Assembly (NCBI RefSeq): GCF_013184805.1
Contig: NZ_JAATNG010000001.1
Coordinates: forward strand, 1,054,001 to 1,118,000
Length of the DNA stretch: 64,000 bases
Direction of reading: 5' to 3'
DNA from: Pseudoruegeria sp. HB172150
GTDB taxonomy: Bacteria; Pseudomonadota; Alphaproteobacteria; Rhodobacterales; Rhodobacteraceae
The notes under the pieces were generated by a model. It was not told where the DNA came from and made no database searches. It was given only the letters and a program-made list of their open reading frames with translations. Within the stretch, counting starts at the first letter, position 1; every line of letters begins with the position of its first letter. Position numbers and translations under genes: made by a program. This document shows positions 8,201 through 47,841 of the stretch, in pieces.

Positions 8201-9409
8201 ATGACGAAAACCATCTTGCGCACCGGAGCCGCGGTTGCCGCCCTGACGGCGGCGCTGCCGGCTGCGGCCGAAGAGATCACCATGATCGTCTGCGGCGACA
8301 CCATGGACCCGATCCACGAGAAGTACATCGGGGAATGGGAAGCGGCCAACGAAGGCTGGACTGTCGCGCCCGAAGTCGTGGGCTGGGGCCAGTGCCAGGA
8401 CAAGGTGACCACCCTTGCCGTCGCCGGTACGCCGGTCGCGCTGGCCTATGTCGGCTCGCGCACGCTGAAGGAATTCGCGGAATTCGGCCTGATCGAACCG
8501 ATCCCGATGAGCGACGAGGAAAAGGCCTCCTATTACCCGAACGTGGTCGGCACTGTGACCTACCAGGGCGAGCAGTGGGGCATCCCGGTCGCCTTCTCGA
8601 CCAAGGCGCTCTACTGGAACAAGGACCTGTTCGAGGAAGCCGGGCTTGATCCTGAAACCCCGCCCGCAACCTGGGAAGAGGTGATCGCCGACGCCAAGGC
8701 CGTGACCGAGAACACCGATGCCGCCGGCTTCGGTCTGGTCGCCAAGACCTTCGACAACACGATGCACCAGTTCCTGCACTGGGTTTACACCAACAACGGC
8801 AAGGTCATCGACGACGACGGCAACATCGTCCTGAACTCGCCGGAAAACCTGGCCGCGCTGGAAGCCTACAAGACCCTCGTTCCCTACTCGGAAGAAGGCC
8901 CGACCGCCTACGAGCAGAACGAGGTCCGCGCGATCTTCCTCGACGGTGGCGTCTCGATGATCCACGCCTCCATCGGCGCCGTGTCGCGCCTTGCCGACAC
9001 CGACATCAACTGGGGTGTCGCCAACCTGCCGCTCGGCCCCGAAGCACAGGGTCCCGGCACGCTGCTGATCACCGACTCGCTGGCCGTGTTCTCGGGCACC
9101 GGCGTCGAAGAGCAGGCGATCAGCCTCGCCAAGTTCCTCACCGCGCCCGCCGCGCAGGAGGAATACGACCTGAACGCCGGCCTGACCCCGCTGCGTCCGT
9201 CGCCGACCATCGACGCGCTGGTGGCGGAAAAGCCTTACTGGGCGCCCTACATCGAGGGCATCGAGTATGGCGGACCCGAGCCGCTGTTCACCGACTACCG
9301 CGCCTTCCAGAACATCATGATCGAGATGGTGCAGTCGGTCGTGACCGGCAAGGCCGAACCGGCGGATGCGCTGGCCAAAGCCGATGCCGAGCTGAAAGAG
9401 CTGGAGTGA
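8201..9409 (+). CDS. Sugar ABC transporter periplasmic substrate-binding protein
   Basis: The 402-residue protein starts after an AGGAGAGG ribosome-binding site. It has a signal peptide with a hydrophobic core AAVAALTAALPAAA and a likely cleavage after AAA (about residue 24). The mature part is a CUT1 extracellular solute-binding protein (SBP_bac_1 type), with motifs such as WGIPVAFSTKALYWNKDLFEEAG. It delivers the sugar to the two permeases just upstream. A strong hairpin between this gene and the ATPase gene may protect its transcript and raise its level above the other subunits. Ligand specificity is not visible; the locus suggests a GlcNAc-containing sugar. Confidence 0.9.
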   Translation: MTKTILRTGAAVAALTAALPAAAEEITMIVCGDTMDPIHEKYIGEWEAANEGWTVAPEVVGWGQCQDKVTTLAVAGTPVALAYVGSRTLKEFAEFGLIEPIPMSDEEKASYYPNVVGTVTYQGEQWGIPVAFSTKALYWNKDLFEEAGLDPETPPATWEEVIADAKAVTENTDAAGFGLVAKTFDNTMHQFLHWVYTNNGKVIDDDGNIVLNSPENLAALEAYKTLVPYSEEGPTAYEQNEVRAIFLDGGVSMIHASIGAVSRLADTDINWGVANLPLGPEAQGPGTLLITDSLAVFSGTGVEEQAISLAKFLTAPAAQEEYDLNAGLTPLRPSPTIDALVAEKPYWAPYIEGIEYGGPEPLFTDYRAFQNIMIEMVQSVVTGKAEPADALAKADAELKELE

Positions 9410-37614: not shown

Positions 37615-37630
37615 ATGGCAGCCCGTAGGG
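37615..37630. repeat. attL core (direct repeat of tRNA-Glu 3' end)
   Basis: ATGGCAGCCCGTAGGG is identical to 47766-47781. The flanks differ immediately on both sides. It is the partial tRNA copy left at the distal end of the element. Confidence 0.85.
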
Positions 37631-37666
37631 TTGTCACAGTTTCCAGCAAAAACAACGGCATAAGTC

Positions 37667-37728
37667 GTCCAACCTGCAAAGATACCCCTTTTGATATCAA
37701 AGTGGAAAATCCCACTTTGTCCAACCTG
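37667..37728. repeat. Integrase/Xis arm-type sites, left end, with inverted repeat
   Basis: GTCCAACCTG occurs at 37667-37676 and again, directly repeated 52 bp later, at 37719-37728. Between them a perfect 8-bp inverted repeat CAAAGTGG-N6-CCACTTTG spans 37698-37719. The same GTCCAACC core recurs as an inverted pair at the right end. This is the arrangement expected of recombinase arm sites. The stretch 37,631-37,785 is AT-rich and otherwise gene-free. Confidence 0.6.
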
Positions 37729-37785
37729 AGAAAGCGTCCGATTTTCGCCGCTTTCATTAAGCCTGTACACAAGCGTGCATCACGG

Positions 37786-37977
37786 ATGCTCGGCTATGCT
37801 TTGACGCTCGGCAGCGAAGCCGCATGGCGGCAGTTTTGCTTCGTCATTAACGTTAGACTGTCGCCGGCTGAGCGCGCCGCGCTCGCCTTTGCAGCTCTTT
37901 CCAGCCTCGATGAAGACCACGCTCAACAGACTGCCGAGGCCGCTCTGTGGGGTATTGTGAAGGATGCCGCGGCATGA
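37786..37977 (+). CDS. Small protein of unknown function at left end of satellite
   Basis: This is a 63-residue frame, MLGYALTLGSEAAWR to the C-terminal GIVKDAAA. The tail SPAERAALAFAALSSLDEDH looks like a compact two-helix protein. Its TGA overlaps the ATG of the connector gene (ATGA), which argues that it is translated. The ribosome-binding site is weak, and the start could be elsewhere in the open frame, which runs back across attL. No function is recognised; it may be a small head or connector accessory. Confidence 0.5.
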   Translation: MLGYALTLGSEAAWRQFCFVINVRLSPAERAALAFAALSSLDEDHAQQTAEAALWGIVKDAAA

Positions 37978-38522
37978 AGATGCTTGTGCACCGGACTGCT
38001 GGAAGCGCTGAGCTGCCATTTGTTCTCGACGATCTGAAGCTTCACCTTCGTGCGCCTGACGACTCCGAAGATAGCGCGATCGAGAACATCGGAGCGACGG
38101 CGGCAGCTGAGATCGAGCAGTTCGCTCAGATTGCGCTGCTGACCCAAACGATACGCGTGACGATCTTCGATCCGTGCGGCGAGCAGGGGCTACGACTGCC
38201 GATTGGCCCAGTGGACGATGACAATACGCCCACCGTTACGATTGATGGCGAGGCATTCAGTGAGTTCGAGTTTGCTGGCGGAAATCGGGCGTACATCTGG
38301 TGGAAGGAGGCGTACTTCAGCCTGACCCCCAGCCGGATGACGATCGAGTATATGGCCGGGTTCGGTGACGCTGCATCGGATGTTCCGCCGGACCTCGCAC
38401 AAGCACTCATGGATCAGGCCGCGCTGCATTACGATGGGCGGTCACCAATGGACTCCAAGTCCCTGACCGCATCGCCGCACATGGCACGGATCGGCGCCAG
38501 GTATCGCGGGGTGCAGGTATGA
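37974..38522 (+). CDS. Phage head-tail connector (HK97 gp6-like)
   Basis: The 182-residue protein has the gp6-like pattern: LDDLKLHLRAPDDSEDSAI near the N-terminus, ATAAAEIEQFAQIAL helix, a central beta region, then DLAQALMDQAALHYDGR. These form the ring that docks under the portal and receives the tail or head-closure protein. It is unusual that the connector lies upstream of the terminase and is separated from the other head genes. It overlaps both neighbours by 4 bp (ATGA). Confidence 0.8.
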   Translation: MKMLVHRTAGSAELPFVLDDLKLHLRAPDDSEDSAIENIGATAAAEIEQFAQIALLTQTIRVTIFDPCGEQGLRLPIGPVDDDNTPTVTIDGEAFSEFEFAGGNRAYIWWKEAYFSLTPSRMTIEYMAGFGDAASDVPPDLAQALMDQAALHYDGRSPMDSKSLTASPHMARIGARYRGVQV

Positions 38523-38830
38523 ACGACCGTCGATTGGAGCGGGTCCGTCAAGTCATGCGGCGCGTCGAGGACATCGACGTGGACGATGCGTGCGAACGTA
38601 TGAGCGAGCGCGAGCTGGATGAAGTCCTGACCTATCACTGGCCGATCGTTGTGCGCCGAGTAATGGCCGACGGCTCCGACGAATGGCTGAAAGGGTTCGT
38701 CCGGTCGATAGCCCGGCACGGAAAGCGTCCGTCCTGGACCCCGACTCTGAAGCAAGAACAGATCATGCGCCGCCTCGTTTCCGAGCTGGGCACTGAGCCG
38801 TCTAAGGAAATCGAACTGATCGAGGGGTGA
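38519..38830 (+). CDS. Unknown satellite protein (possible small terminase or head accessory)
   Basis: A 103-residue, charged, mostly helical protein (MNDRRLERVRQVMRRVEDID...). It ends with a basic-aromatic segment ARHGKRPSWTPTLKQEQIM and an acidic tail. Its ATG overlaps the connector stop. No small terminase subunit is otherwise recognisable in the element, and this gene occupies the position before the packaging-region gap and TerL, so a TerS role is possible. There is no clear N-terminal HTH, so I do not assign it. Confidence 0.6.
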   Translation: MNDRRLERVRQVMRRVEDIDVDDACERMSERELDEVLTYHWPIVVRRVMADGSDEWLKGFVRSIARHGKRPSWTPTLKQEQIMRRLVSELGTEPSKEIELIEG

Positions 38831-39206
38831 GACACAGCGACCCTGCGCGCCACCATACGCAGGGCCACAAGTGGTGGTTCGGGTTGCCAACGGTGGCACC
38901 ACTTGTGTGCAGCTTACCATGGGCGGGATCAAAGGCAAGGGCAGTCCGCGAGGTTGAGGCCCGATCCCCGGCGCAGCGTTCGTGCGTCGAAAGCAGCAAC
39001 TGACCGACCGGCAGGAACGCGTGACCGGACGGGCCCAAAGCGATGGACCGGCTCCGTTGAGCAGGATCTTCACGCGGAGGGCATAGGGACTGACACGGCC
39101 GCGCGCTGTGGGCAGTCGTCCTATGCCCTTCGCTCCGAACCTCACCATTGAGCAGGTGAGGCGAGAGCAACGGTTGAACTGAGTGATACGCGCGAGAGAG
39201 CAAGCA
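38831..39206. other. Hairpin-rich gene-free region before TerL (packaging site or structured RNA)
   Basis: The 376 bp contain no supportable gene but four strong inverted repeats. These are CCCTGCG/CGCAGGG (38841-38864); an 11-bp perfect CACAAGTGGTG/CACCACTTGTG (38866-38907); a compound hairpin 39074-39133 with a 14-bp outer stem (one G-T pair), a 5-bp middle stem and a 6-bp inner stem; and CCTCACC/GGTGAGG (39140-39161). An ATG at 38919 opens only 12 codons. The position directly before the large terminase suits a cos/pac site; a structured RNA is the alternative. Confidence 0.55.
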
Positions 39207-40838
39207 ATGCGAACGAACTTCGGTACAGGACAGCCAGACCTCTTCGGAAGCGGTCCCAATGCCGCGACTTTGGCCAATTCCGGTGACCGTGCTGCTGAGT
39301 TTTCTCTTTTCGCGCAGGGCGAGGATCTGGCGCCGGCCGCCGCGGCGGTCAGGTTCATGGAAACGCTCGCCATTCCGGAAGGTCCGAACGCCGGAAAGCC
39401 TGTTTCGCTCGCACCATTTCAACGGAAATTCATCGAAGGTGCGCTGGCTGCCGACATTGCCGCCGCAGTTCTCAGCATCGGACGCGGCAACGGGAAGTCC
39501 GCGATAACGGCTGGGCTTGGCTTGGGCGGTCTTCTCGGCGTTTGGGATCATCAGCCCCGCCGTGAGATCGTCGCAGCTGCGCGGACCCGCGATCAGGGAC
39601 GGATCATCTGGGATTTCGTCGCCGGCTTCGCTGCAAGCCTGCCTCTCGATCTTCAGCGCCGCTTGATCTATCGCCGCGCTCCCCGCCTCGAGATCGAATT
39701 TGAGGGTGATGGCGGCGGGCACGTTCTGCGCGTCATCGCTGCTGACGGCAAGTCCGCTCTGGGCGGAGCTCCGACGATGGCGATCCTGGACGAGCGTGGG
39801 CACTGGGCGTTGGATCGCGGAGACGAACTCGAACACGCCCTGGTATCCGGCCTCGGAAAACGTTCGGGGCGTGCCTTCCTGATCAGCACGTCCGCCAGCG
39901 ACGACACGCACCCGTTTTCTCGGTGGATCGATGATCCTGCACCCGGTTCCTATGTGCAGGAGCATCGTCCTTCGCCGGGACTGCCGGCAGATGACCGGGA
40001 ATCGCTTCTGATCGCCAACCCGGGCGCACCTCACGGCATCGGTGGTTCGATCAACTGGCTCGAAGCCCAGGCGCAACGTGCGATCGCACGTGGCGGATCC
40101 AGCCTCACCAGCTTCCGACTCTACAATCGAAACGAGCGCATCTCCGGCGAGTCGCGGGACATGCTCATCACGCCGGACGAATGGCAGCATTGCGAGACGG
40201 ACACGCTGCCTCCACGCCAGGGCAGCGTGATAATCGGGATCGACCTGGGCGGCTCTGCCTCGATGACGGCGGCGGCATTCTATTGGCCTGAAACCGGGAG
40301 GCTCGAATGCCTGGGAACCTTCCCGTCCGTTCCCAGTCTCTTGGACCGGGGCCAGGCGGACGGCGTCGCCGGGCGCTATGTCGAGATGCACGACCGAGGC
40401 GAACTGACCGTCCTGGGCGACAAGACGGTGCCCGTGGCGCCGTGGCTGGCGGAAGTAATGCGCCATGTCGAGGGTGAACATGTCAGCGCGATCACGATGG
40501 ATCGCTACAAGCAAGCTGAGCTATCGGAAGCGCTCAATCGCGCCGGAATACGTGCGCCGTGGATCTGGCGAGGGCAGGGCTTCCGGGACGGCGGAGAGGA
40601 TGCGGAACGGTTCCGCCGCGCGGCTTTCGACGGTCAGGTGAAAGCCCGCCCCTCGCTGCTGCTGCGCTCCGCCTTCGCAGACACGGTCTGCCTGCGAGAT
40701 CCGGCCAACAATATCAAAATCGCGAAAGCCCGCTCCACTGGACGGATTGATGCCGCTGCAGCCGCGGTCCTCGCGGTTGCCCAGGGCGCGCGTATCGCAG
40801 CCCAACCCCAGACAAAAGCGAGAATGGCATGGCTCTGA
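39207..40838 (+). CDS. terL: Phage terminase large subunit
   Basis: The 543-residue motor has an ATPase domain with Walker A-like GRGNGKS (92-98) and Walker B MAILDE (191-196), and a C-terminal RNase H-fold nuclease whose first acidic residue lies in IIGIDLGGSASMTA. It translocates and cuts DNA during head filling. GAGAGAG lies 7 bp before the ATG at 39207; a GTG at 39183 would add eight residues. Its 3' end overlaps the adaptor gene by 10 bp. Sequence is of the HK97/P27-associated terminase type. Confidence 0.9.
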   Translation: MRTNFGTGQPDLFGSGPNAATLANSGDRAAEFSLFAQGEDLAPAAAAVRFMETLAIPEGPNAGKPVSLAPFQRKFIEGALAADIAAAVLSIGRGNGKSAITAGLGLGGLLGVWDHQPRREIVAAARTRDQGRIIWDFVAGFAASLPLDLQRRLIYRRAPRLEIEFEGDGGGHVLRVIAADGKSALGGAPTMAILDERGHWALDRGDELEHALVSGLGKRSGRAFLISTSASDDTHPFSRWIDDPAPGSYVQEHRPSPGLPADDRESLLIANPGAPHGIGGSINWLEAQAQRAIARGGSSLTSFRLYNRNERISGESRDMLITPDEWQHCETDTLPPRQGSVIIGIDLGGSASMTAAAFYWPETGRLECLGTFPSVPSLLDRGQADGVAGRYVEMHDRGELTVLGDKTVPVAPWLAEVMRHVEGEHVSAITMDRYKQAELSEALNRAGIRAPWIWRGQGFRDGGEDAERFRRAAFDGQVKARPSLLLRSAFADTVCLRDPANNIKIAKARSTGRIDAAAAAVLAVAQGARIAAQPQTKARMAWL

Positions 40839-41170
40839 ACGCAGGAAGCCTCAACCGACGCATACAAGTTCAGCGGGCCACCGCTACGCCGGACGGATCT
40901 GGCGGCTTCGAAAACGAGTGGAACGATCACGGTCAGCCGATCTTCGCCCGGCGTCGAGATGTGTCAGACGCTGAGCGCCTGAGCGCCGGCGGTTGGGACA
41001 ACAAGCTGGTGAGCCGCTTCGTCGTCCGTGCAACCGCATTCGGGCGCGGTATCAATCGGACTGACCGGATCATCCACGAGGGTGTCACCTTCGAGATCGA
41101 CGGCATCAAAGAGGTCCCCGATAACAGAGGCTTCCTCGAAATCACTGCCCAGACGGATGAGATCGCATGA
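40829..41170 (+). CDS. Phage head closure / head-tail adaptor protein
   Basis: The 113-residue protein begins MALNAGSLNRRIQVQRAT and contains DGSGGFENEW and the C-terminal FEIDGIKEVPDNRGFLEITA. This is the SPP1 gp16/HK97 gp7-like head-closure pattern. It closes the portal after packaging and gives the tail its docking surface. In this element it sits between TerL and HNH instead of after the capsid gene. Confidence 0.82.
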   Translation: MALNAGSLNRRIQVQRATATPDGSGGFENEWNDHGQPIFARRRDVSDAERLSAGGWDNKLVSRFVVRATAFGRGINRTDRIIHEGVTFEIDGIKEVPDNRGFLEITAQTDEIA

Positions 41171-41517
41171 GCATCCGTAAGGAACATCAGCGGCATTCGC
41201 GCAAGGTCACTCGGACCAAACGCTGGAAGGCACTACGGGCCGAAATCCTCGAACGGGACCGATATCGCTGCCAGTCCTGCGGCTGCGGCGGGCGGCTCGA
41301 GGTGGACCACATCAAGCCGGTTAGGACGCACCCCGAGCTGTCCTATGACGCAAGCAACCTTCAGGCTCTTTGCCCCGGTTGCCACACCAGAAAGACAAGA
41401 ATCGAGTGCGGGCATCCCCCGCCCCGAGAGGACCGCCAGGACTGGCGGAAAGCGGTCGAGGCGCTGTCGCGCCCCGGCAAACGAGGCATCATACAGAAGG
41501 ACTTGAACGATGCTTGA
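41167..41517 (+). CDS. HNH endonuclease (packaging-associated)
   Basis: The 116-residue protein has a zinc-binding CxxC pair (CQSCGCG), the HNH core LEVDHIKPVRTHPELSYDASNLQALCPGCHTRKT, whose first His, Asn and last His form the active site, and a second CxxC (CPGC). In HK97-type phages this protein works with TerL at the cos site. It overlaps the adaptor gene by 4 bp and the capsid gene by 8 bp, so it is part of the head operon and not a homing intruder. Confidence 0.88.
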   Translation: MSIRKEHQRHSRKVTRTKRWKALRAEILERDRYRCQSCGCGGRLEVDHIKPVRTHPELSYDASNLQALCPGCHTRKTRIECGHPPPREDRQDWRKAVEALSRPGKRGIIQKDLNDA

Positions 41518-42772
41518 CTCTGTGAAGATCGCGCGGCGCCAGTCGGAAATCCGTCAGGCCCTCGCGGAACTGGTCGGTAAGGAGGACCTTACCGACGATG
41601 AAACACGCTCCATGGACGACATGGACCGTGAGTATCGGCAGAATGAGACGCGTTACCGCGCTTCGCTGATCGCCGAAGACGAGGAACGGCGCGAAGCCGG
41701 CGATGAGCTGGAGACCCGGTCGGACAAGGAATGGTCCGAACTGATGGCGCGGTTTGAGATGCGCCAGGTTGCGCTGGCCCTTGATGAAGGCCGGGCGCTA
41801 TCCGGCCAGACGGCCGAGATCGTTACAGAGCTGCGGGAAAAGGGCGGCTATCGCGGCGTTCCCGTGCCATGGCAGGCGCTGGAGATCCGTGCAGGCGAAA
41901 CGGTTGCCAGCGGCACACCCGATCCGATCCAGACGCGACCGATCATCGATCGGCTGTTTCCGGACTCGGTTGCCTCTCGGATGGGAACCCAAATGATCAA
42001 CATCGATCATGGCGAAGTCGAATGGCCGGTCGTGACGTCGAGCGTGGCAGCGGGCTGGGCCGATGGCGAAACTGCCAACGTCGCCGGTCCGACGACCTTC
42101 GCCACGACCGACAAGGCGCTGGCGCCGGATCAGAACCTTGGTATCCAGATGCGTGTTACCAGGAAGTCGCTGAAACAGTCCGGAGCGGCGCTTGAGGCGG
42201 CCATCCGCCGGGATATGCAAAGCTGCATGGCTCAGGCGCTGGACGCAGCAATCTTCCTGGGCACGGGCGCCAATGGGCAACCTCTCGGCGTGATCACCGG
42301 GGCATCGACTTACGGGATCACCGACACGGATTTGTCCGGCGCAGCTGCCTGGTCAGCGTTCCGCGCCGCCGTGGTCCGGTTCATGACGGCCAACGCGGCG
42401 GGGTCGCCTTCCGCGGTTCGGATGATGATCCGTCCCGAAGTCTGGGACACGATGGATGACACGTACATCGACACCGGCACGGGGGTGACCGAATGGGATC
42501 GCCTGGTGAAGAACATCCCGATGCAAAACATCGCGATGACCACCAACGGCCTGGCCGCCCCGGCCGGTGACCCGGCCGAGAGCATCGCACTTCTGACGAC
42601 CTCTGCGGGCGGCGTCGCTCCGATTTTCGTTGGCACCTGGGGGGCAGTGGACCTGATCCGCGACCCCTACACCGACGCACAATCGGGCGGGCTGCGTCTC
42701 ACCGGGCTTGTCACCGCAGATGTGACGGTTGCCCGGCCGAAGCAGCTCGAAGTCGTCTCGGGCATCCAGTGA
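41510..42772 (+). CDS. HK97-family major capsid protein
   Basis: The 420-residue protein has a charged coiled-coil delta/scaffold domain (about 1-105) and a capsid fold. Landmarks include SRMGTQMINIDHGEVEWPV, RDMQSCMAQALDAAIFLGTG, and the C-terminal GLRLTGLVTADVTVARPKQ. The delta domain is expected to be cut by the protease encoded next. It forms the icosahedral shell. Normal length and an intact frame indicate a functional protein. Confidence 0.92.
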   Translation: MLDSVKIARRQSEIRQALAELVGKEDLTDDETRSMDDMDREYRQNETRYRASLIAEDEERREAGDELETRSDKEWSELMARFEMRQVALALDEGRALSGQTAEIVTELREKGGYRGVPVPWQALEIRAGETVASGTPDPIQTRPIIDRLFPDSVASRMGTQMINIDHGEVEWPVVTSSVAAGWADGETANVAGPTTFATTDKALAPDQNLGIQMRVTRKSLKQSGAALEAAIRRDMQSCMAQALDAAIFLGTGANGQPLGVITGASTYGITDTDLSGAAAWSAFRAAVVRFMTANAAGSPSAVRMMIRPEVWDTMDDTYIDTGTGVTEWDRLVKNIPMQNIAMTTNGLAAPAGDPAESIALLTTSAGGVAPIFVGTWGAVDLIRDPYTDAQSGGLRLTGLVTADVTVARPKQLEVVSGIQ

Positions 42773-43344
42773 TGCTTTGGGGCGGTTCCAAAGGCGGGAT
42801 CGAGGTTCGGTCTGGCGAGGAAGGTTCGACCGTCCTCGCCGGTCGCTTCCCGTATTCGGTGCCAACCGTCCTTCAGGGCGGTCGGGATCGGCGCCGCGAG
42901 GTGTTCCAGGCACGGGCTTTCGGCGACTCCGTGGCAGATGAGGCGGACATTCATCTGCTGGTGCACCATGATTTCGATCGCCCGCTCGCTTCGCGATCGG
43001 CCGGCAGTCTCACACTCATCGATGACGACGACGCCCTCTCCTTTGAGGCACGGTTGGCACCCGACATGCGCAATGTGAGCTATGTCTCCGATTTCCTCGG
43101 AACGTTGGCGGCCGGCCTGGTCGGCGGCATATCGCCCGGCTTCCGTGTCCCTGACGGCGGTGCGATCGTGAAGCGCGATGGAACGGGCCTCATGCGGGTC
43201 GTCAACACGGCCGAACTGGTCGAGATATCCGCGGTCACGAAGCCGGCTTATCCGCTGGCGCAGGTTGAGGCCCGTAACTGGCAGCCCGTCGGCCAGGTCG
43301 CGCGACAGGCTGTCGACCGCCACCCTTCCAGCCGCTGGAGGTGA
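42772..43344 (+). CDS. HK97-type prohead protease
   Basis: The 190-residue serine protease of family U35/S78 shows the catalytic His in LLVHHDFDRPLAS (about His66) and the catalytic Ser in GGISPGF (Ser121). It removes the capsid delta domain during maturation. The ATG at 42772 overlaps the capsid stop (TGATG); GTG at 42769 is also possible. It follows the capsid gene here, whereas it precedes it in HK97. Confidence 0.88.
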   Translation: MLWGGSKGGIEVRSGEEGSTVLAGRFPYSVPTVLQGGRDRRREVFQARAFGDSVADEADIHLLVHHDFDRPLASRSAGSLTLIDDDDALSFEARLAPDMRNVSYVSDFLGTLAAGLVGGISPGFRVPDGGAIVKRDGTGLMRVVNTAELVEISAVTKPAYPLAQVEARNWQPVGQVARQAVDRHPSSRWR

Positions 43345-43348
43345 ATAG

Positions 43349-44413
43349 ATGCTCGGATGGTTGATGAACCGGCTCCGGCCAATTGAGGCGCGTTCCAGTG
43401 GCTCGGGGTATACCGCGCAGGTCATGGCGGCACGCGACAGCTATATCAGTGGTCGCCGCGGCGTAGCAGAGCTGACGGCGACCGTTCAAAGTTGCATAAG
43501 TCTCTGGGAGGGCGGTTTCGCGATGGCTGACGTCGCCGGGACCGACCTGTTGACCCGGCAGAACATGGCGATCATCGCGCGATCAGCCGCCCTTAACGGA
43601 GAGTCGGTCCACCTGATCACTGGAACGGGGCTTGTGCCAGCGACCGACTGGGACGTGACGACTCGCGACGGACAGCCTCGCGCCTATCGCCTGTCCATCC
43701 CTGAAGCCGGTGGTGGTCGCACTGTGACTGCACTGGCGGCTGAGGTACTGCATCTGCGGATCGGCTCGGACGCGCTGACGCCATGGATCGGCACCGCACC
43801 ACTTCGCCGTTCCAGCCTGACCGGAGCAATGCTTCACGCGGTTGAGGCGGCCCTGTCAGAAACGTTTGAGAATGCGCCTCTCGGTTCGCAAATCGTGCCT
43901 CTGCCGGACACTGGCGCGGATGACATGGAAACGATGCGATCCGCATTCCGGGGTCGGCGCGGGAGCACCCTTGTGATCGAGGGCGTTGCCCAGGCCACCG
44001 CAGCGGGCATGAACCCACAACTCGGGCAACGGCCGGATCAGCTTTCGCCGGATCTATCGAGGTCCATGACGGATGAGACATTGGCGGCGGCACGCGAGGG
44101 AATCGCCATGGCCTTTGGCGTGTTACCGGCCCTGCTAAACCGTGCTGCAACCGGCCCAGTGGTTCGAGAGGCGCAGCGCCAATTGGCCATTTGGACCCTT
44201 CAGCCAATTGCGGAGCTGCTGGCAGCGGAAGCGGCCGCCAAGCTGGGAAATGATGTTGCGATCGACACGATCCGCCCGCTGCAGGCGTTTGACGCCGGCG
44301 GTCGCGCTCGTGCGCTCTCGGCGATCGTCAAGACGATGGCTGAAGCGAAGGAAGCAGGCATTTCGCCCGAAGTACTTTCCGGCGCGATGCATCTACTCGA
44401 TTGGAAAGAATAG
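43349..44413 (+). CDS. Phage portal protein (HK97 family)
   Basis: The 354-residue protein shows portal features: LWEGGFAMADV near the N-terminus, EVLHLRIGSDALTPWIGTAPL, a wing/stem region, and REGIAMAFGVLPALLNRA in the clip-crown part. It forms the dodecamer at one capsid vertex. It lies 4 bp after the protease gene. The order capsid-protease-portal is the reverse of the classical one. At 354 residues it is slightly short for the family but has no visible truncation. Confidence 0.88.
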   Translation: MLGWLMNRLRPIEARSSGSGYTAQVMAARDSYISGRRGVAELTATVQSCISLWEGGFAMADVAGTDLLTRQNMAIIARSAALNGESVHLITGTGLVPATDWDVTTRDGQPRAYRLSIPEAGGGRTVTALAAEVLHLRIGSDALTPWIGTAPLRRSSLTGAMLHAVEAALSETFENAPLGSQIVPLPDTGADDMETMRSAFRGRRGSTLVIEGVAQATAAGMNPQLGQRPDQLSPDLSRSMTDETLAAAREGIAMAFGVLPALLNRAATGPVVREAQRQLAIWTLQPIAELLAAEAAAKLGNDVAIDTIRPLQAFDAGGRARALSAIVKTMAEAKEAGISPEVLSGAMHLLDWKE

Positions 44414-44422
44414 GAGACAAGA

Positions 44423-44683
44423 ATGGCTGACCGATACGATCAGTTCAAAACCGGCCCCGTAAGTCCCGCGATCGGCGGTTTCGCAGTGACGCCAGACGAT
44501 GACACCGACCTGACCGAAATCCCGCGTGCCCTCTACATAGGGGGCGCAGGGTCGCTGGACGTAACGATGATGGACGGCACTAACCTGACCTTTGCTGGCC
44601 TGTCGGCTGGCGCAGTGCTGCCGATCAGGCCCTCTCGCATTCTAGAAACCAGCTCTGCGACTGGGATCGTCGCTCTGTACTGA
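44423..44683 (+). CDS. Small beta-rich protein resembling GTA head-spike base (Rcc01079 type)
   Basis: The 86-residue protein has the pattern AVTPDDDTDLTEIPRALYIG, then SLDVTMMDGTNLTF, GAVLPIRPSRILETSSATG and terminal IVALY. This strongly resembles the spike-base domain of the Rhodobacter capsulatus gene transfer agent head spikes, recognised from memory and not by a search. Such proteins decorate the capsid vertices and carry receptor-binding fibres. It is the last gene of the head operon, 9 bp after the portal gene. If correct, the satellite particle has its own head spikes. Confidence 0.6.
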   Translation: MADRYDQFKTGPVSPAIGGFAVTPDDDTDLTEIPRALYIGGAGSLDVTMMDGTNLTFAGLSAGAVLPIRPSRILETSSATGIVALY

Positions 44684-44799
44684 ACATGGCTGGGTGCGCC
44701 TGGGTTCTCGTCGAGCCCGAAGCACCCCGGATCAGTCGGTGAGTGCCGCAAAACCCCGACAGCGCGCGGTCCTTTTCTGATTGCGAGGGCGCGGCGCGT

Positions 44800-45081
44800 T
44801 TAGTACCCAGTGGTTTCGTTACGGCCCACCTGCTCATCTTCGCTTTCTTCTTCGCCGTCCTCGAATACGGGCTCTTTGGTCAGATCGCCTGTCACTGGTA
44901 CAGCAGAATGGAAGAACGCACTCATTGTGTTCAGCGTTCTTGGTTCCGGGTGGTGAAAGGCTTCGAGGGTCACAAGATGACCATCTACCGCGGTGACCTT
45001 CCAATCGTTGTTACTACGGTAAAGACCGTTGGATTCCCTTTCTAATTCTGTGATTCGGTAGCTTTTTCCAACTTCGAACAT
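44800..45081 (-). CDS. Small hypothetical protein, minus strand of satellite
   Basis: The 93-residue frame from MFEVGKSYRI to ETTGY has a beta-rich N-terminal part (WKVTAVDGHLVTLEAF) and an acidic tail (FEDGEEESEDEQ). It looks like an SH3-like small domain found as a hypothetical protein in alphaproteobacteria. It follows the XRE gene on the same strand. A competing plus-strand frame over the same bases lacks such character. Function unknown; a cargo or control role is possible. Confidence 0.55.
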   Translation of the reverse strand: MFEVGKSYRITELERESNGLYRSNNDWKVTAVDGHLVTLEAFHHPEPRTLNTMSAFFHSAVPVTGDLTKEPVFEDGEEESEDEQVGRNETTGY

Positions 45082-45128
45082 CCTTCGTCCTCATTTGTTT
45101 GACGTAATATTTTGCTGGGAATATAGGT

Positions 45129-45401
45129 CTATTGGGGAGGCCGCGCTATACCTCGAGCGTTGACCTTCACACCCTCGCGGCCCTGCTGATCAAATGTGAA
45201 ATCAATTCCAAGCCCTTCGATAGCGCGTTTCACTGCGTCGACATTGTTTGGTAATGCGGACGGTATTCCATAACTTGCTTCGATTCTGCGCAACGTGGCG
45301 ATAGAGACATTGGCGTCCTTCGCGACTTTCTCCTGTGAGAAGCCAGCGAGGACTCGCCCTGCCGCCAGTTGGCGTCCCGTGACATGATATAAAACGCTCA
45401 C
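45129..45401 (-). CDS. XRE-family helix-turn-helix regulator (satellite switch)
   Basis: The 90-residue protein has one HTH: GRQLAAGRVLAGFSQEKVAK, then ANVSIATLRRIEASYG. The GTG start at 45401 is uncertain because no better start exists upstream of the HTH. It is divergent from the plus-strand genes leading to the integrase, across an 81-bp AT-rich gap, the typical position of a prophage or satellite repressor. It probably maintains the integrated state. Confidence 0.75.
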   Translation of the reverse strand: MSVLYHVTGRQLAAGRVLAGFSQEKVAKDANVSIATLRRIEASYGIPSALPNNVDAVKRAIEGLGIDFTFDQQGREGVKVNARGIARPPQ

Positions 45402-45482
45402 AGTGATATAATCCTATTGCGTTACAGACGTGTGATTGATATATCTCACGATGCAACTTTTTATGCAAATGGAGATCTCAAA

Positions 45483-45797
45483 ATGACTGAACAACGCGCC
45501 CGCGCGAATGAAAAACGCTTGCTCGAAAATGACCTCAATACAATGCTCGAACGCATTTGTTGGTTCTGTCACCACTTCGGTGTTGTTGCCCCGGCTTTAG
45601 AGTTCGATCCAGGTCATCCGGAGGAGATTTTGGTTACCGACGAGTTGATCGAGTGGGTCAGAGCTGAGGGCGCGTGTATTGATTGGCTTGTATGCGGCGC
45701 AGTTTCGCCCGCACTCGCCGCATACCGTGAGAAGCACCTACCTGGCGACTTAGCCTCAGTAGAGAGAGTCTCACACACCAGGAAACGTGTACATTGA
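45483..45797 (+). CDS. Hypothetical protein, early gene of the satellite
   Basis: The 104-residue protein from MTEQRARANEK contains a CWFCHHFG cysteine-histidine cluster (ICWFCHHFGVVAPAL) and the C-terminal motif DWLVCGAVSPALAAYREKH. It starts 81 bp from the divergent XRE gene, so it is probably the first gene under its control. A longer in-frame start upstream would overlap the control region. No function is recognised. Confidence 0.6.
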   Translation: MTEQRARANEKRLLENDLNTMLERICWFCHHFGVVAPALEFDPGHPEEILVTDELIEWVRAEGACIDWLVCGAVSPALAAYREKHLPGDLASVERVSHTRKRVH

Positions 45798-45846
45798 CAC
45801 AATATGCTCGCTTCGTGTATGGCTACACAAAGCAAGGGCAGAGCCG

Positions 45847-46497
45847 ATGCAACTCGAACTAGAGACTTACACTCCGAGTGAGGCCGAGGAGATCACGGCG
45901 GTCAAACAGGCCACGGTTCGGAATTGGCGTCGCGCGGGGCACCTTCCTCGGCAACAAGGCCATGCGCGCTACAATTTGGCGGACATGCTGGTAATGTTCG
46001 TCATGGGAATGCTGGTTTCGCGTGGGACCAGCCCGGAAGCCGCTAAAGAGTTTGCGGGGCATGCCGCCCGCGCCATTTTTCAAAGTACGATCTGGAGCAC
46101 TAAAGCGTTCTCGCAGTCCGTTCGGGATAAAGCCAAAGCCGAGCTTGGAGAGATATCCGGCGACGAGGTTTCCTACTTCAAGGCGCAGCTCGGGGATGAT
46201 TTTCGCCTTGATTTTCTTGAGGTGGCCCGCAGCCAAGAAATTATGGTCAAGGCGGCTGAACAACTCGCCGGTATCTCGGGCATGAAGCATCCGAGTTGGC
46301 TTGTCATCTGGGCTGACGGTTCTCTGGAATTCTTCCACGACGATGAGGACCCGGACGATAGTTTTTTCGGCAACATCCAGCACGGCGAAGCCTACGTTCA
46401 AGGCCCGGTCATGCTGTTTTGCCTTGGAGCCTTGGCACAGATGGTGATCGACCGATTGCCGCGCCCCGCGATCCGATTGGCCACGGGGGCAGAGTGA
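45847..46497 (+). CDS. MerR-like HTH regulator / excisionase-type protein
   Basis: The 216-residue protein has a MerR/AlpA-like N-terminal DNA-binding segment (EEITAVKQATVRNWRRAGHLP, then ARYNLADML) and a longer C-terminal region of unknown fold ending near the spacer to the integrase genes. In phage satellites an AlpA-type protein of this kind activates excision. Its stop overlaps the next ATG (TGATG). The start at 45847 follows a weak AGGGCAGAG site. Confidence 0.65.
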   Translation: MQLELETYTPSEAEEITAVKQATVRNWRRAGHLPRQQGHARYNLADMLVMFVMGMLVSRGTSPEAAKEFAGHAARAIFQSTIWSTKAFSQSVRDKAKAELGEISGDEVSYFKAQLGDDFRLDFLEVARSQEIMVKAAEQLAGISGMKHPSWLVIWADGSLEFFHDDEDPDDSFFGNIQHGEAYVQGPVMLFCLGALAQMVIDRLPRPAIRLATGAE

Positions 46498-46679
46498 TGG
46501 CAACCCGGCAGTCCCTTGTCTCGCAAGCCGAAATCAAGCGCACTCTGCAAGCGGCCCTGTCTGCCGGCTTGCGTATTGGTAGGGTCGAAGTGGACCATGC
46601 TACTGGCCGCGTTGTTGTATTCCCGGAAGGCGCGGCACCTCAAGCTGCCGGCCCCGATCCCGACGAGCTGCTGAAATGA
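46497..46679 (+). CDS. Small protein coupled to integrase
   Basis: The 60-residue frame MATRQSLVSQAEIKRTLQAA to DPDELLK has overlaps on both sides: TGATG with the MerR-like gene and ATGA with the integrase. Its helix-strand pattern (AEIKRTLQAALSAGLRIGRV) is like that of small accessory proteins found before integrases in alphaproteobacterial islands. It may act in excision; no family is certain. Confidence 0.65.
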   Translation: MATRQSLVSQAEIKRTLQAALSAGLRIGRVEVDHATGRVVVFPEGAAPQAAGPDPDELLK

Positions 46680-47746
46680 CGCGGCGCAAGAACCCATATC
46701 CCGGTGTTCGCAAGAACATGGTCAAAGGGCGTATCTATTGGAAGTTTGAGTGCGGCGACTTTCGCACCAACATTCCCGGACCCTACGGATCACCCGAGTT
46801 TCTGGCGGCCTATGAGGCCGCGCTTGCCGGTTCCAAGGCTACCAGCGCCTCGACCGCCTTGGCGGGTACGCTTGCGTGGCTGATAGAGCAATACCTTCGC
46901 AGCCTGCGCTTTCAGAACCTGTCCGACAGTCGCAAGAGGACAATTCGGCTTGAGCTGGATTGGCTTCGCAAAGAAGCGGGGAAATATCAATTCGAGCGGC
47001 TGGAAGTCCGACATATTGAAGCTCTCATGGCGAAAAAGAACGGACCCACCGCTGCGAACACGGTCAAGAAGAATCTTTCTATGCTATTCAACTTTGCGGC
47101 CAAAAAGCTCGGATACACCGGCCCAAACCCTGCTCGCTTCGCAGAGCGGATGAAGACCAACCCGGATGGTTACCACACCTGGACCGATGGGGAAGTGTCG
47201 CGCTTTCTCGAGCGGCATGGCGAGGGCACGAAGGCGCGGCTGGTAATGCTACTAGCCCTCAACACAGGAATGGCTCGACAGGATCTCGCACGCGTCGGCT
47301 GGCAGCATGTTCGGGACGGCCGGATAGCATACCGCCGCGGGAAGACATCGGTGGCGGCAGACCTGCCGATACTGCCTGAGCTGTCCGCAGAGCTGCGGCA
47401 TGTCCCGTCTGACAGATTGCTGTTCATTACTCAGGACAACCGCGATGCGCCTTACGCAGTGGCTTCGCTCGGAAACTGGTTTCGGGACAGGTGCAAGGAA
47501 GCCAACGTGCCTGGTTCGCTGCATGGACTGAGAAAGGCTGGGGCGACTCGCTTGGCAAATGCGGGCGCTACGGAATGGGAGATTGCCTCGTATCTGGCCC
47601 ACACTGACACCAAGCAGGCGGCAACGTATGCGAAGAAGGCAAACCGTTCACGCCTTGCGGACAGCGGATTTGCCAAACTCTCAAGCGGAAACGTGTCCAA
47701 CCTTTCCGATCGGTTGGACAAAAAGGGCGGAAAATCCGATGTATAA
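46676..47746 (+). CDS. int: Tyrosine recombinase/integrase
   Basis: The 356-residue protein has an arm-binding N-terminus, a SAM-like core-binding domain (about 60-150) and a catalytic domain with Arg201 (NTGMARQDL), His283-x-x-Arg286 (LHGLRKAGATRLA), His309 (LAHTDTKQ) and nucleophile Tyr318 (AATYAKKANR). All catalytic residues are present. It ends 19 bp from the attR core in the tRNA-Glu gene, which is its probable target. Right-end arm-type sites lie inside its 3' end. Confidence 0.92.
   Translation: MTRRKNPYPGVRKNMVKGRIYWKFECGDFRTNIPGPYGSPEFLAAYEAALAGSKATSASTALAGTLAWLIEQYLRSLRFQNLSDSRKRTIRLELDWLRKEAGKYQFERLEVRHIEALMAKKNGPTAANTVKKNLSMLFNFAAKKLGYTGPNPARFAERMKTNPDGYHTWTDGEVSRFLERHGEGTKARLVMLLALNTGMARQDLARVGWQHVRDGRIAYRRGKTSVAADLPILPELSAELRHVPSDRLLFITQDNRDAPYAVASLGNWFRDRCKEANVPGSLHGLRKAGATRLANAGATEWEIASYLAHTDTKQAATYAKKANRSRLADSGFAKLSSGNVSNLSDRLDKKGGKSDV
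47695..47719. repeat. Right-end arm-type inverted repeat inside int
   Basis: GTCCAACC and GGTTGGAC form perfect 8-bp arms around a 9-bp spacer, 47 bp from the attR core. The same GTCCAACC core is present twice, as direct repeats, at the left end of the element. Confidence 0.6.
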
Positions 47747-47765
47747 CAAAATGTTAGATGGAGAT

Positions 47766-47781
47766 ATGGCAGCCCGTAGGG
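47766..47781. repeat. attR core (tRNA-Glu 3' end)
   Basis: ATGGCAGCCCGTAGGG covers the CCA end and the 3' acceptor/T-arm strand of the tRNA-Glu gene and repeats the attL core exactly. Confidence 0.85.
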
Positions 47782-47841
47782 GAATCGAACCCCTCTTTCC
47801 AGGTTGAAAACCTGGCGTCCTAACCGATAGACGAACGGGCC
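47767..47841 (-). tRNA. tRNA-Glu (anticodon TTC)
   Basis: Read on the minus strand, the 75-nt gene has acceptor strands GGCCCGT/ACGGGCT with encoded CCA, a D-arm with GGTTAGG, an anticodon stem CCAGG/CCTGG with loop TTTTCAA (anticodon TTC), and a T-arm containing GGTTCGATTCC. All stems pair, with a G-U at position 1-72. It remains complete after insertion of the satellite into its 3' end. Confidence 0.95.

Follow-up and report, generated by a model that had tools for sequence, protein, structure and literature searches.

A candidate tail-less, capsid-encoding phage satellite of an alphaproteobacterial family, with a structured RNA where some relatives carry replication genes

The 64,000-nucleotide stretch of Pseudoruegeria sp. 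HB172150 considered here (henceforth the window, positions 1,054,001 to 1,118,000 of contig NZ_JAATNG010000001.1) carries, at its positions 37615-47781, an element of 10.15 kb inserted at a tRNA-Glu gene. This element is probably (at about 0.8) an integrated, tail-less, capsid-encoding phage satellite belonging to a conserved alphaproteobacterial family. We read it in this way because it has an integrase and att repeats at a tRNA gene, because its head and packaging genes come without recognised tail genes, and because its relatives form units of about 10.3 kb. An earlier, sequence-only reading of the same DNA had already described a 10.15-kb element at tRNA-Glu with integrase, att repeats, control genes and an HK97-type head set; its coordinates are correct, and family matches back its integrase, its control genes and its head set (Table 1). 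Absent from that reading was the content of a gap of ~350 bp before the gene of the terminase large subunit (TerL), which is a conserved structured RNA.

A 16-bp att core, ATGGCAGCCCGTAGGG, is found in two identical copies, one at either end of the element. Around the insertion there is partial synteny, and no clean empty site: in G003, from the same genus, 3.1 kb separate the TRAP gene of the left flank from tRNA-Glu, with no copy of the core in the interval, while the 5-kb stretch fetched from G002 has the TRAP gene, no tRNA and no core (genomes are designated by G numbers, loci by L numbers). Inside the element, every head open reading frame (ORF) is open; frameshifts in head genes, which would have spoken against the sequence-only reading, are absent, and these genes are intact and conserved. 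That reading had recognised no tail, lysis or replication gene. Scans of PHROG, Pfam and other curated families agree, yielding no lysis or replication family among the ORFs of the element and no recognised tail-tube or tape-measure gene; the sole match filed under tails belongs to the ORF that we read as a head-spike base. The proposal that this is the gene content of capsid-forming islands stands for the head set, TerL, HNH endonuclease, integrase, att repeats and regulators, but the terminase small subunit (TerS) was not found as a separate gene. The regulators are of the XRE and MerR/HTH_17 types, and can be termed AlpA-like in that sense alone.

A DNA-level search of 50,697 phage and 72,556 plasmid records gave no match to the element, and its portal matched nothing in phages. 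Relatives of the portal nevertheless exist at 53 IMG/VR loci, counting that of the window itself (L038), with 35 of these loci on contigs of 8-13.5 kb, and in 205 stretches of the GTDB genome collection. Our family counts use the best 80 of these 205 stretches, whose record titles place the hosts in Rhodobacterales (63), Hyphomicrobiales (13) and Sphingomonadales (1), with three unplaced. One relative, L141, resides in Rhodobacter capsulatus DSM 1710. Of 394 genomes sampled in the window's family, 40 encode a counterpart of the major capsid protein (MCP) with an identity of at least 56%, the own genome counted and some matches partial; if the satellite reading is right, about one sampled genome in ten of that family would carry a capsid-building, tail-borrowing element of about 10 kb. 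Among 385 genomes sampled across the class, a portal profile matched 3 (E<=1e-10), and among 299 sampled across the phylum it matched 4 (E<=1e-5); a single one of these genomes falls outside the window's family.

The sequence-only reading had suggested a search for the same head module plus integrase at tRNA genes of other Rhodobacteraceae. The head genes of 45 of the 80 loci are flanked on both sides by directly repeated copies of a tRNA 3' end, repeats of 14-16 bp (L093, L101, L144, L145, L155, L165 and L166, for example) being weaker evidence than the many of at least 40 bp; L158, with a 13-bp repeat, was excluded. The remaining loci showed no such repeat, many of them being cut by contig ends. 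The tRNAs used are those for Glu, Cys, Thr, Arg, Leu, Phe, Lys, Asn, Ser and Ala. The distance from att to att ranges from 9317 to 11245 bp (mean 10268, s.d. 458), and the order TerL-(stopper)-HNH-MCP-protease-portal is common to the relatives. This uniform size and this shared order argue for a functional unit rather than a deletion. Some genomes house several elements, two or three per genome (L110/L111; L139/L142/L150; L152/L160; L133/L135). A longer relative with tail genes, which would have made the element a deletion product, did not turn up for the three tail types sought. Among the families listed for accessory ORFs (25 of 71 in PHROG, 25 of 26 in Pfam) there is no tail family, the scan (A5) covering, from 239 clusters in the 45 elements, the first 149 representatives with a length of 60 aa or more, singletons of L159-L167 excluded. 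Likewise, 22 tail proteins of three tail types only, those of the phages Shpa and Pthi1 and of the resident cluster resembling a gene transfer agent (GTA), gave no hit in loci L038-L170 (1.95 Mb, E<=1e-4), in a search that detected both of its positive controls.

One relative takes another form. The contig of L132, from Gemmobacter serpentinus, ends in a 96-bp terminal direct repeat, as expected of a closed circle of 10,340 bp, and has a stated coverage of 941x. L132 has no tRNA, and a DNA search of the genome revealed no second copy. By eye, it codes for a plasmid-type initiator (8661-9377); a portion of this ORF has 65% identity with a stretch on another contig of the same genome.

What could supply the missing tail? 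Our best model is that the satellite would make its own head and take the tail of a siphophage, and we prefer this source because the stopper is closer to those of Paracoccus siphophages than to that of the resident GTA: it is 44% identical to the stopper of Pthi1 (71.6 bits) and 41% to that of Shpa (67.8 bits), versus 27% (33.1 bits) for the GTA-like stopper of its own genome. In this scenario the XRE repressor would silence the element until a helper phage de-represses it. Excision would be followed by replication, with the structured RNA substituting for an initiator protein, either as the origin itself or by directing it. TerL and the HNH endonuclease would then cut unit-length DNA and pack it into a small HK97 head of the element's own, adaptor and stopper would seal this head and dock the siphophage tail supplied by the helper, and helper lysis genes would free the particles. 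In the window copy, GTA-type head spikes may also help the particles to bind the host surface. The neck is variable: among the 69 loci in which both TerL and MCP could be measured, a stopper homologue lies between these two genes in 28 and elsewhere in 2. The slot between TerL and MCP is shorter than 500 bp in 34 of the loci without a stopper, and longer in 5. This suggests a modular head-tail interface, consistent with adaptation to different helper tails, and would make neck genes, present or absent, a handle on how satellites and tails are matched.

Several observations weigh against this picture. No separate TerS was found by the family scans of the element, unless it is represented by the HNH ORF, which matches phrog_4581, filed as terminase small subunit, over the early part of the profile. 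The putative head-spike base also matches phrog_12296 (5e-23), which PHROGs files as a tail fiber protein; we read this ORF as a homologue of Rcc01079 of the Rhodobacter capsulatus GTA (RcGTA) because it matches that protein in PDB 6tb9, as the sequence-only reading of a GTA-like spike had anticipated. The neck also differs between relatives, 39 of the 69 loci yielding no stopper homologue. No phage protein matches the adaptor at E<=0.01, and its score is higher with the GTA adaptor (43.5 bits) than with those of Pthi1 and Shpa (32.3 and 30.8 bits). Finally, the own genome has no PF05065 capsid besides that of the GTA-like locus L007 (C1:2294000-2312000, an RcGTA-type cluster by eye and by adaptor and stopper similarity), so that no obvious HK97-type helper is resident.

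These last points could be turned into a different account, in which the satellite's head docks GTA tails coming from GTA-producing cells. The spike base belongs to a GTA family, that GTA-like cluster is the only other PF05065 capsid locus around, the hosts found belong to the alphaproteobacteria, a class in which RcGTA-like clusters are widely distributed (PMC11409702; papers are cited by PMC number from excerpts), and across the family adaptors are nearer to the GTA (medians of 43.1 bits in elements with a stopper and 40.4 in those without) than to Shpa/Pthi1 (28.5 bits with a stopper and 27.3 without). Yet adaptors are no more GTA-like where the stopper is lacking, and the stopper, by which the head contacts the tail, clearly sides with the siphophages; we hold a GTA tail to be improbable. 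It would be still more surprising if the element were the remnant of an ordinary prophage deprived of its tail genes. To be sure, its head genes are of phage type, it sits at a tRNA, and a survey of Rhodobacteraceae prophages reports that their lengths peak at 10-15 kb, though not in its medium- and high-quality set (PMC8224337). However, the head genes of the element are intact, 45 att-bounded relatives spread over several families and two orders have a size of 9.3-11.2 kb and a common order, and no longer, tailed counterpart turned up for the three tail types; on size and gene order we reject the remnant. If the satellite reading is right, such elements may themselves contribute to that peak. 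That the capsid was domesticated as a nanocompartment or bacteriocin used by the host and is no longer mobile would account for the fact that no helper was identified, but fits badly with an intact integrase, att sites at many different tRNAs, a patchy distribution, genomes with two or three copies and a circular, plasmid-like form; we give this hardly any credit. A satellite that borrows a siphophage tail is the reading that we retain.

The RNA is the part of the element with most room for surprise. The ~330 bp that separate the gene of a small protein, u104, from TerL recur in many relatives with 69-90% identity along some 250-430 bases. A protein-coding gene was considered there and rejected: each of the three frames holds stops, in the element as well as in relatives, and conservation of the DNA runs across frames. 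RNAalifold, applied to 22 sequences (A2), proposes 80 pairs, 26 of which changed on both sides. In a control count 96.7% of cells are paired, and these 26 two-sided pairs compare with 11.2 in shuffles (0/500 as high); sliding the partners makes pairing fall to 35-45%. A second sequence type (A3, 26 rows, with L048 as an example) has 32 two-sided pairs out of 83, versus 10.3 in shuffles (0/500), it being understood for both alignments that rows were picked by similarity and structures derived from the same rows, which favours structure somewhat, and that shuffles leave relatedness in. At paired sites, G-U exceeds A-C by 142:15 and 223:14 in two alignments, and the reverse strand folds worse in both types A and B; this excess and this poorer reverse fold point to selection on a sense-strand RNA between u104 and TerL. 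The window sequence itself folds with a z of -4.3. This RNA covaries strongly and is undescribed in Rfam: none of 4227 models matches it in the window element, and in L141 and L048 only tRNA rises above the gathering score, L141 also having weak matches at chance level.

In its own genome the RNA is confined to the element. Of 101 genomes searched with a model of it, 8 gave a total of 10 matching places; three of these places (G000, G048 and G030:C44, 140-162 bits) are within elements, and the remaining seven score 35-88 bits. A type-A model matched a single genome of the 101, in the element of G004. The lower-scoring matches in L183, L184, L187 and L189 (35-88 bits) lie outside capsid elements; three are behind integrase and AlpA-like ORFs, as judged by eye, near contig ends, and one is amid transporter genes. 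The Paracoccus phage Shpa has a homologue (116 bits, E 2e-25), located after the helicase gp45 and the primase gp46. The annotated gp47 of Shpa overlaps this match (L172 20030-20172) and may be no gene; gp48 starts just behind. A third conserved non-coding block (type C) follows u104 in elements without A or B RNA (L123 5243-5700, L163 5132-5570, L152 5050-5440, L158 5277-5690). In these four sequences the reverse strand folds slightly better, G-U and A-C number 29 and 9, and single-sequence z values run from -0.4 to -2.3 against simple shuffles; given the fold and the G-U results, we do not claim it as an RNA.

The distribution of the RNA is suggestive. In the 45 att-bounded elements, 20 have an RNA of type A or B (L093 at 42 bits only), 20 a replication gene, 5 neither (L123, L127, L144, L152 and L163) and, as far as searched, none both. 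These counts come from an asymmetric search, with hand-picked ORFs for RNA-less elements and pooled scans for RNA-bearing ones. The 20 replication genes, in the 25 elements lacking A/B RNA, are PHROG matches to primase/helicase, initiator, primosomal or topoisomerase-like families; the weak cases are L135 and L161, at E 0.004-0.007, and L125 and L137, topoisomerase-like only. A scan of 145 ORFs of the 20 RNA-bearing elements matched 35 families, and among the 25 listed there is no replication family. A second scan of 61 of these 145 ORFs, hand-chosen and mostly of at least 100 aa, together with three window ORFs, had all of its 22 families listed, and none concerns replication except a weak match to phrog_262, 'DNA polymerase' (E 0.0014). 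One ORF of the RNA-bearing elements matches a partition ATPase. In L112 and L124 an initiator-like gene occupies exactly the slot of the window's RNA, from adaptor/u104 to TerL, and u104 is immediately 5' of the RNA in 19 of 20 cases. On a portal tree built with a quick method, the presence of the RNA changed at least six times, five of these changes being required by branches with support, and near neighbours swap types A and B. In independent pairs RNA and replication gene never change in the same way, and go in opposite ways in 3.8 of 5 on average, five pairs being too few to reach 0.05; the plain Fisher test (P 2e-8) ignores relatedness.

What might this RNA do? Because it occupies the slot of replication genes and alternates with them, and follows helicase and primase in Shpa, we tentatively propose that it stands in for a replication protein as an RNA-based origin, with a logic akin to that of ColE1, in the form of an exchangeable RNA of ~330 nt of which there are at least two types. 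If this were true, its presence in Shpa would reveal a shared signal for replication or helper response. Rather less probable is a cis-acting leader of the head operon, working by antitermination or attenuation in the manner of put or EAR elements. Structured leaders can control long operons, and the RNA does lie directly 5' of TerL in the sense direction. Yet in L084 it precedes the adaptor rather than TerL, as does the type-C block in L123, L152, L158 and L163, and neither its place behind the Shpa helicase and primase nor its alternation with replication genes is what a leader would lead us to expect. The region might also determine packaging, as a packaging RNA or as a cos or pac site, since it adjoins TerL in an element with no recognised TerS, and HNH-type packaging mostly goes via cos. 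We find this unlikely: the G-U excess argues for selection on the RNA of a single strand rather than on duplex DNA, 25 of the 45 elements dispense with A/B RNA while keeping TerL, HNH and capsid genes, and in Shpa the RNA is not at the terminase. An RNA-based origin remains our working proposal, and its location makes RNA-directed replication of satellites a testable question.

Table 1. Features of the element, in window coordinates
Feature	Position	Strand	Matches and remarks
attL, 16-bp core	37615..37630	no strand	identical copy at 47766-47781
Small left-end ORF	37776..37977 (open from 37603)	(+)	by eye resembles a 15-member cluster among the 45 elements
Head-tail adaptor	37947..38522	(+)	phrog_442 5e-19; PF05135; TIGR02215; PDB 6tba Rcc01688 E 0.002
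u104, small three-helix protein	38600..38830 (ORF open from 38519)	(+)	directly 5' of RNA
Structured RNA (type B), ~330 nt	38836..39165	(+)	slot filled by replication genes in some relatives
TerL (terminase large subunit)	39207..40838 (ORF from 39183)	(+)	phrog_9 5e-61; PF03354; PF20441
Stopper / head completion protein	40829..41170	(+)	PF05521 2e-16; 44% to Paracoccus phage Pthi1
HNH endonuclease	41167..41517	(+)	PF01844; phrog_144 4e-23; also phrog_4581 1e-16
HK97-type MCP	41510..42772	(+)	PF05065 1e-15
Prohead protease	42769..43344	(+)	PF04586 1e-19
Portal protein	43349..44413	(+)	PF04860 2e-13; family A1
Putative head-spike base (Rcc01079 family)	44423..44683	(+)	NF048002 5e-27; PDB 6tb9 1.4e-10
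Small unknown protein	44800..45081	(-)	occurs in some relatives
XRE-type repressor	45129..45401	(-)	PF01381 4e-6
Unknown protein	45417..45797	(+)	divergent from repressor
MerR/AlpA-like (HTH_17) regulator	45787..46497	(+)	PF13411 1.5e-7; PF12728; phrog_66
Small protein before integrase	46419..46679	(+)	occurs in many relatives
Tyrosine integrase	46676..47746	(+)	PF00589 2e-12; phrog_1 5e-36
attR, 16-bp core within 3' end of tRNA-Glu	47766..47781	no strand	
tRNA-Glu(TTC), intact	47767..47841	(-)	

A few of these features deserve a comment. The small ORF of the left end has no PHROG match, and neither has its counterpart in relative L111. Protein u104, aligned in 40 rows (A8), is modelled by AlphaFold2 with a pLDDT of 87.6; it finds no match in PDB or BFVD at E<=0.001 and none in phages at E<=1, and as a candidate TerS it was rejected, having neither a sequence nor a fold match. 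The spike-base gene exists in a single copy in its own genome and, among loci L038-L170, solely in the IMG/VR copy of the window's element; it may be needed by the resident GTA or be carried as cargo. Scans for promoters and terminators gave results at chance level.

How does the element compare with known systems? The Paracoccus phage Shpa shares the RNA and a stopper 41% identical to that of the element, but is a complete tailed phage of 38 kb; its TerL, HNH endonuclease, protease and adaptor are only distantly similar, and portal and MCP have no meaningful match there. RcGTA is also alphaproteobacterial and has homologues of the adaptor and of the head-spike base. By contrast, the element has an integrase and att sites, a different capsid and no tail cluster, the GTA-like cluster lying elsewhere in the genome; the head-tail cluster with tail genes that defines a GTA was not found in it. 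The Streptomyces satellites MulchRoom and MiniFlayer have their own capsid and packaging genes and no obvious replicase, but their helpers are virulent phages, their genomes have direct terminal repeats, and the excerpt of the paper describing them mentions no structured RNA (PMC10690885). The Vibrio satellite-plasmid cf-PISP is capsid-encoding, tail-less and extrachromosomal, which recalls the circular relative L132 (PMC13230959); it differs in its hosts, and the element of the window, for its part, is inserted at a tRNA gene.

The closest likeness is with the capsid-forming phage-inducible chromosomal islands (cf-PICIs). Three capsid radiations have been reported (PMC11389934). Alphaproteobacteria are absent from the cf-PICI host list in the excerpt of PMC10803314, and this, together with the predominance of Rhodobacterales among our loci (63 of 80), fits the separate lineage that the sequence-only reading had suggested. 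The open-licence literature surveyed, which leaves most subscription papers aside and is represented by excerpts, contains no alphaproteobacterial capsid-forming satellite. The differences are that no TerS is recognised here, that size is ~10.3 kb versus a cf-PICI mean of 14 kb (PMC10803314), that hosts are alphaproteobacterial, and that many members carry a structured RNA rather than a replication gene. The likeness rests on gene content, published descriptions rather than capsid sequences having been compared. Cf-PICIs of the EcCIEDL933 type have the same integrase, regulators, TerL, HNH, MCP, protease, portal and connectors, and no tail genes (PMC10690885, PMC13230959). The element, for its part, has its own MCP, protease, portal and connectors, TerL with HNH, and integrase, att sites and control genes; no tail or lysis gene is recognised in the element, the spike base being read as part of the head, nor, for the families listed and the three tail types, in the relatives. 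Among the features of content compared, TerS alone has no clear counterpart, and the element probably works like a cf-PICI.

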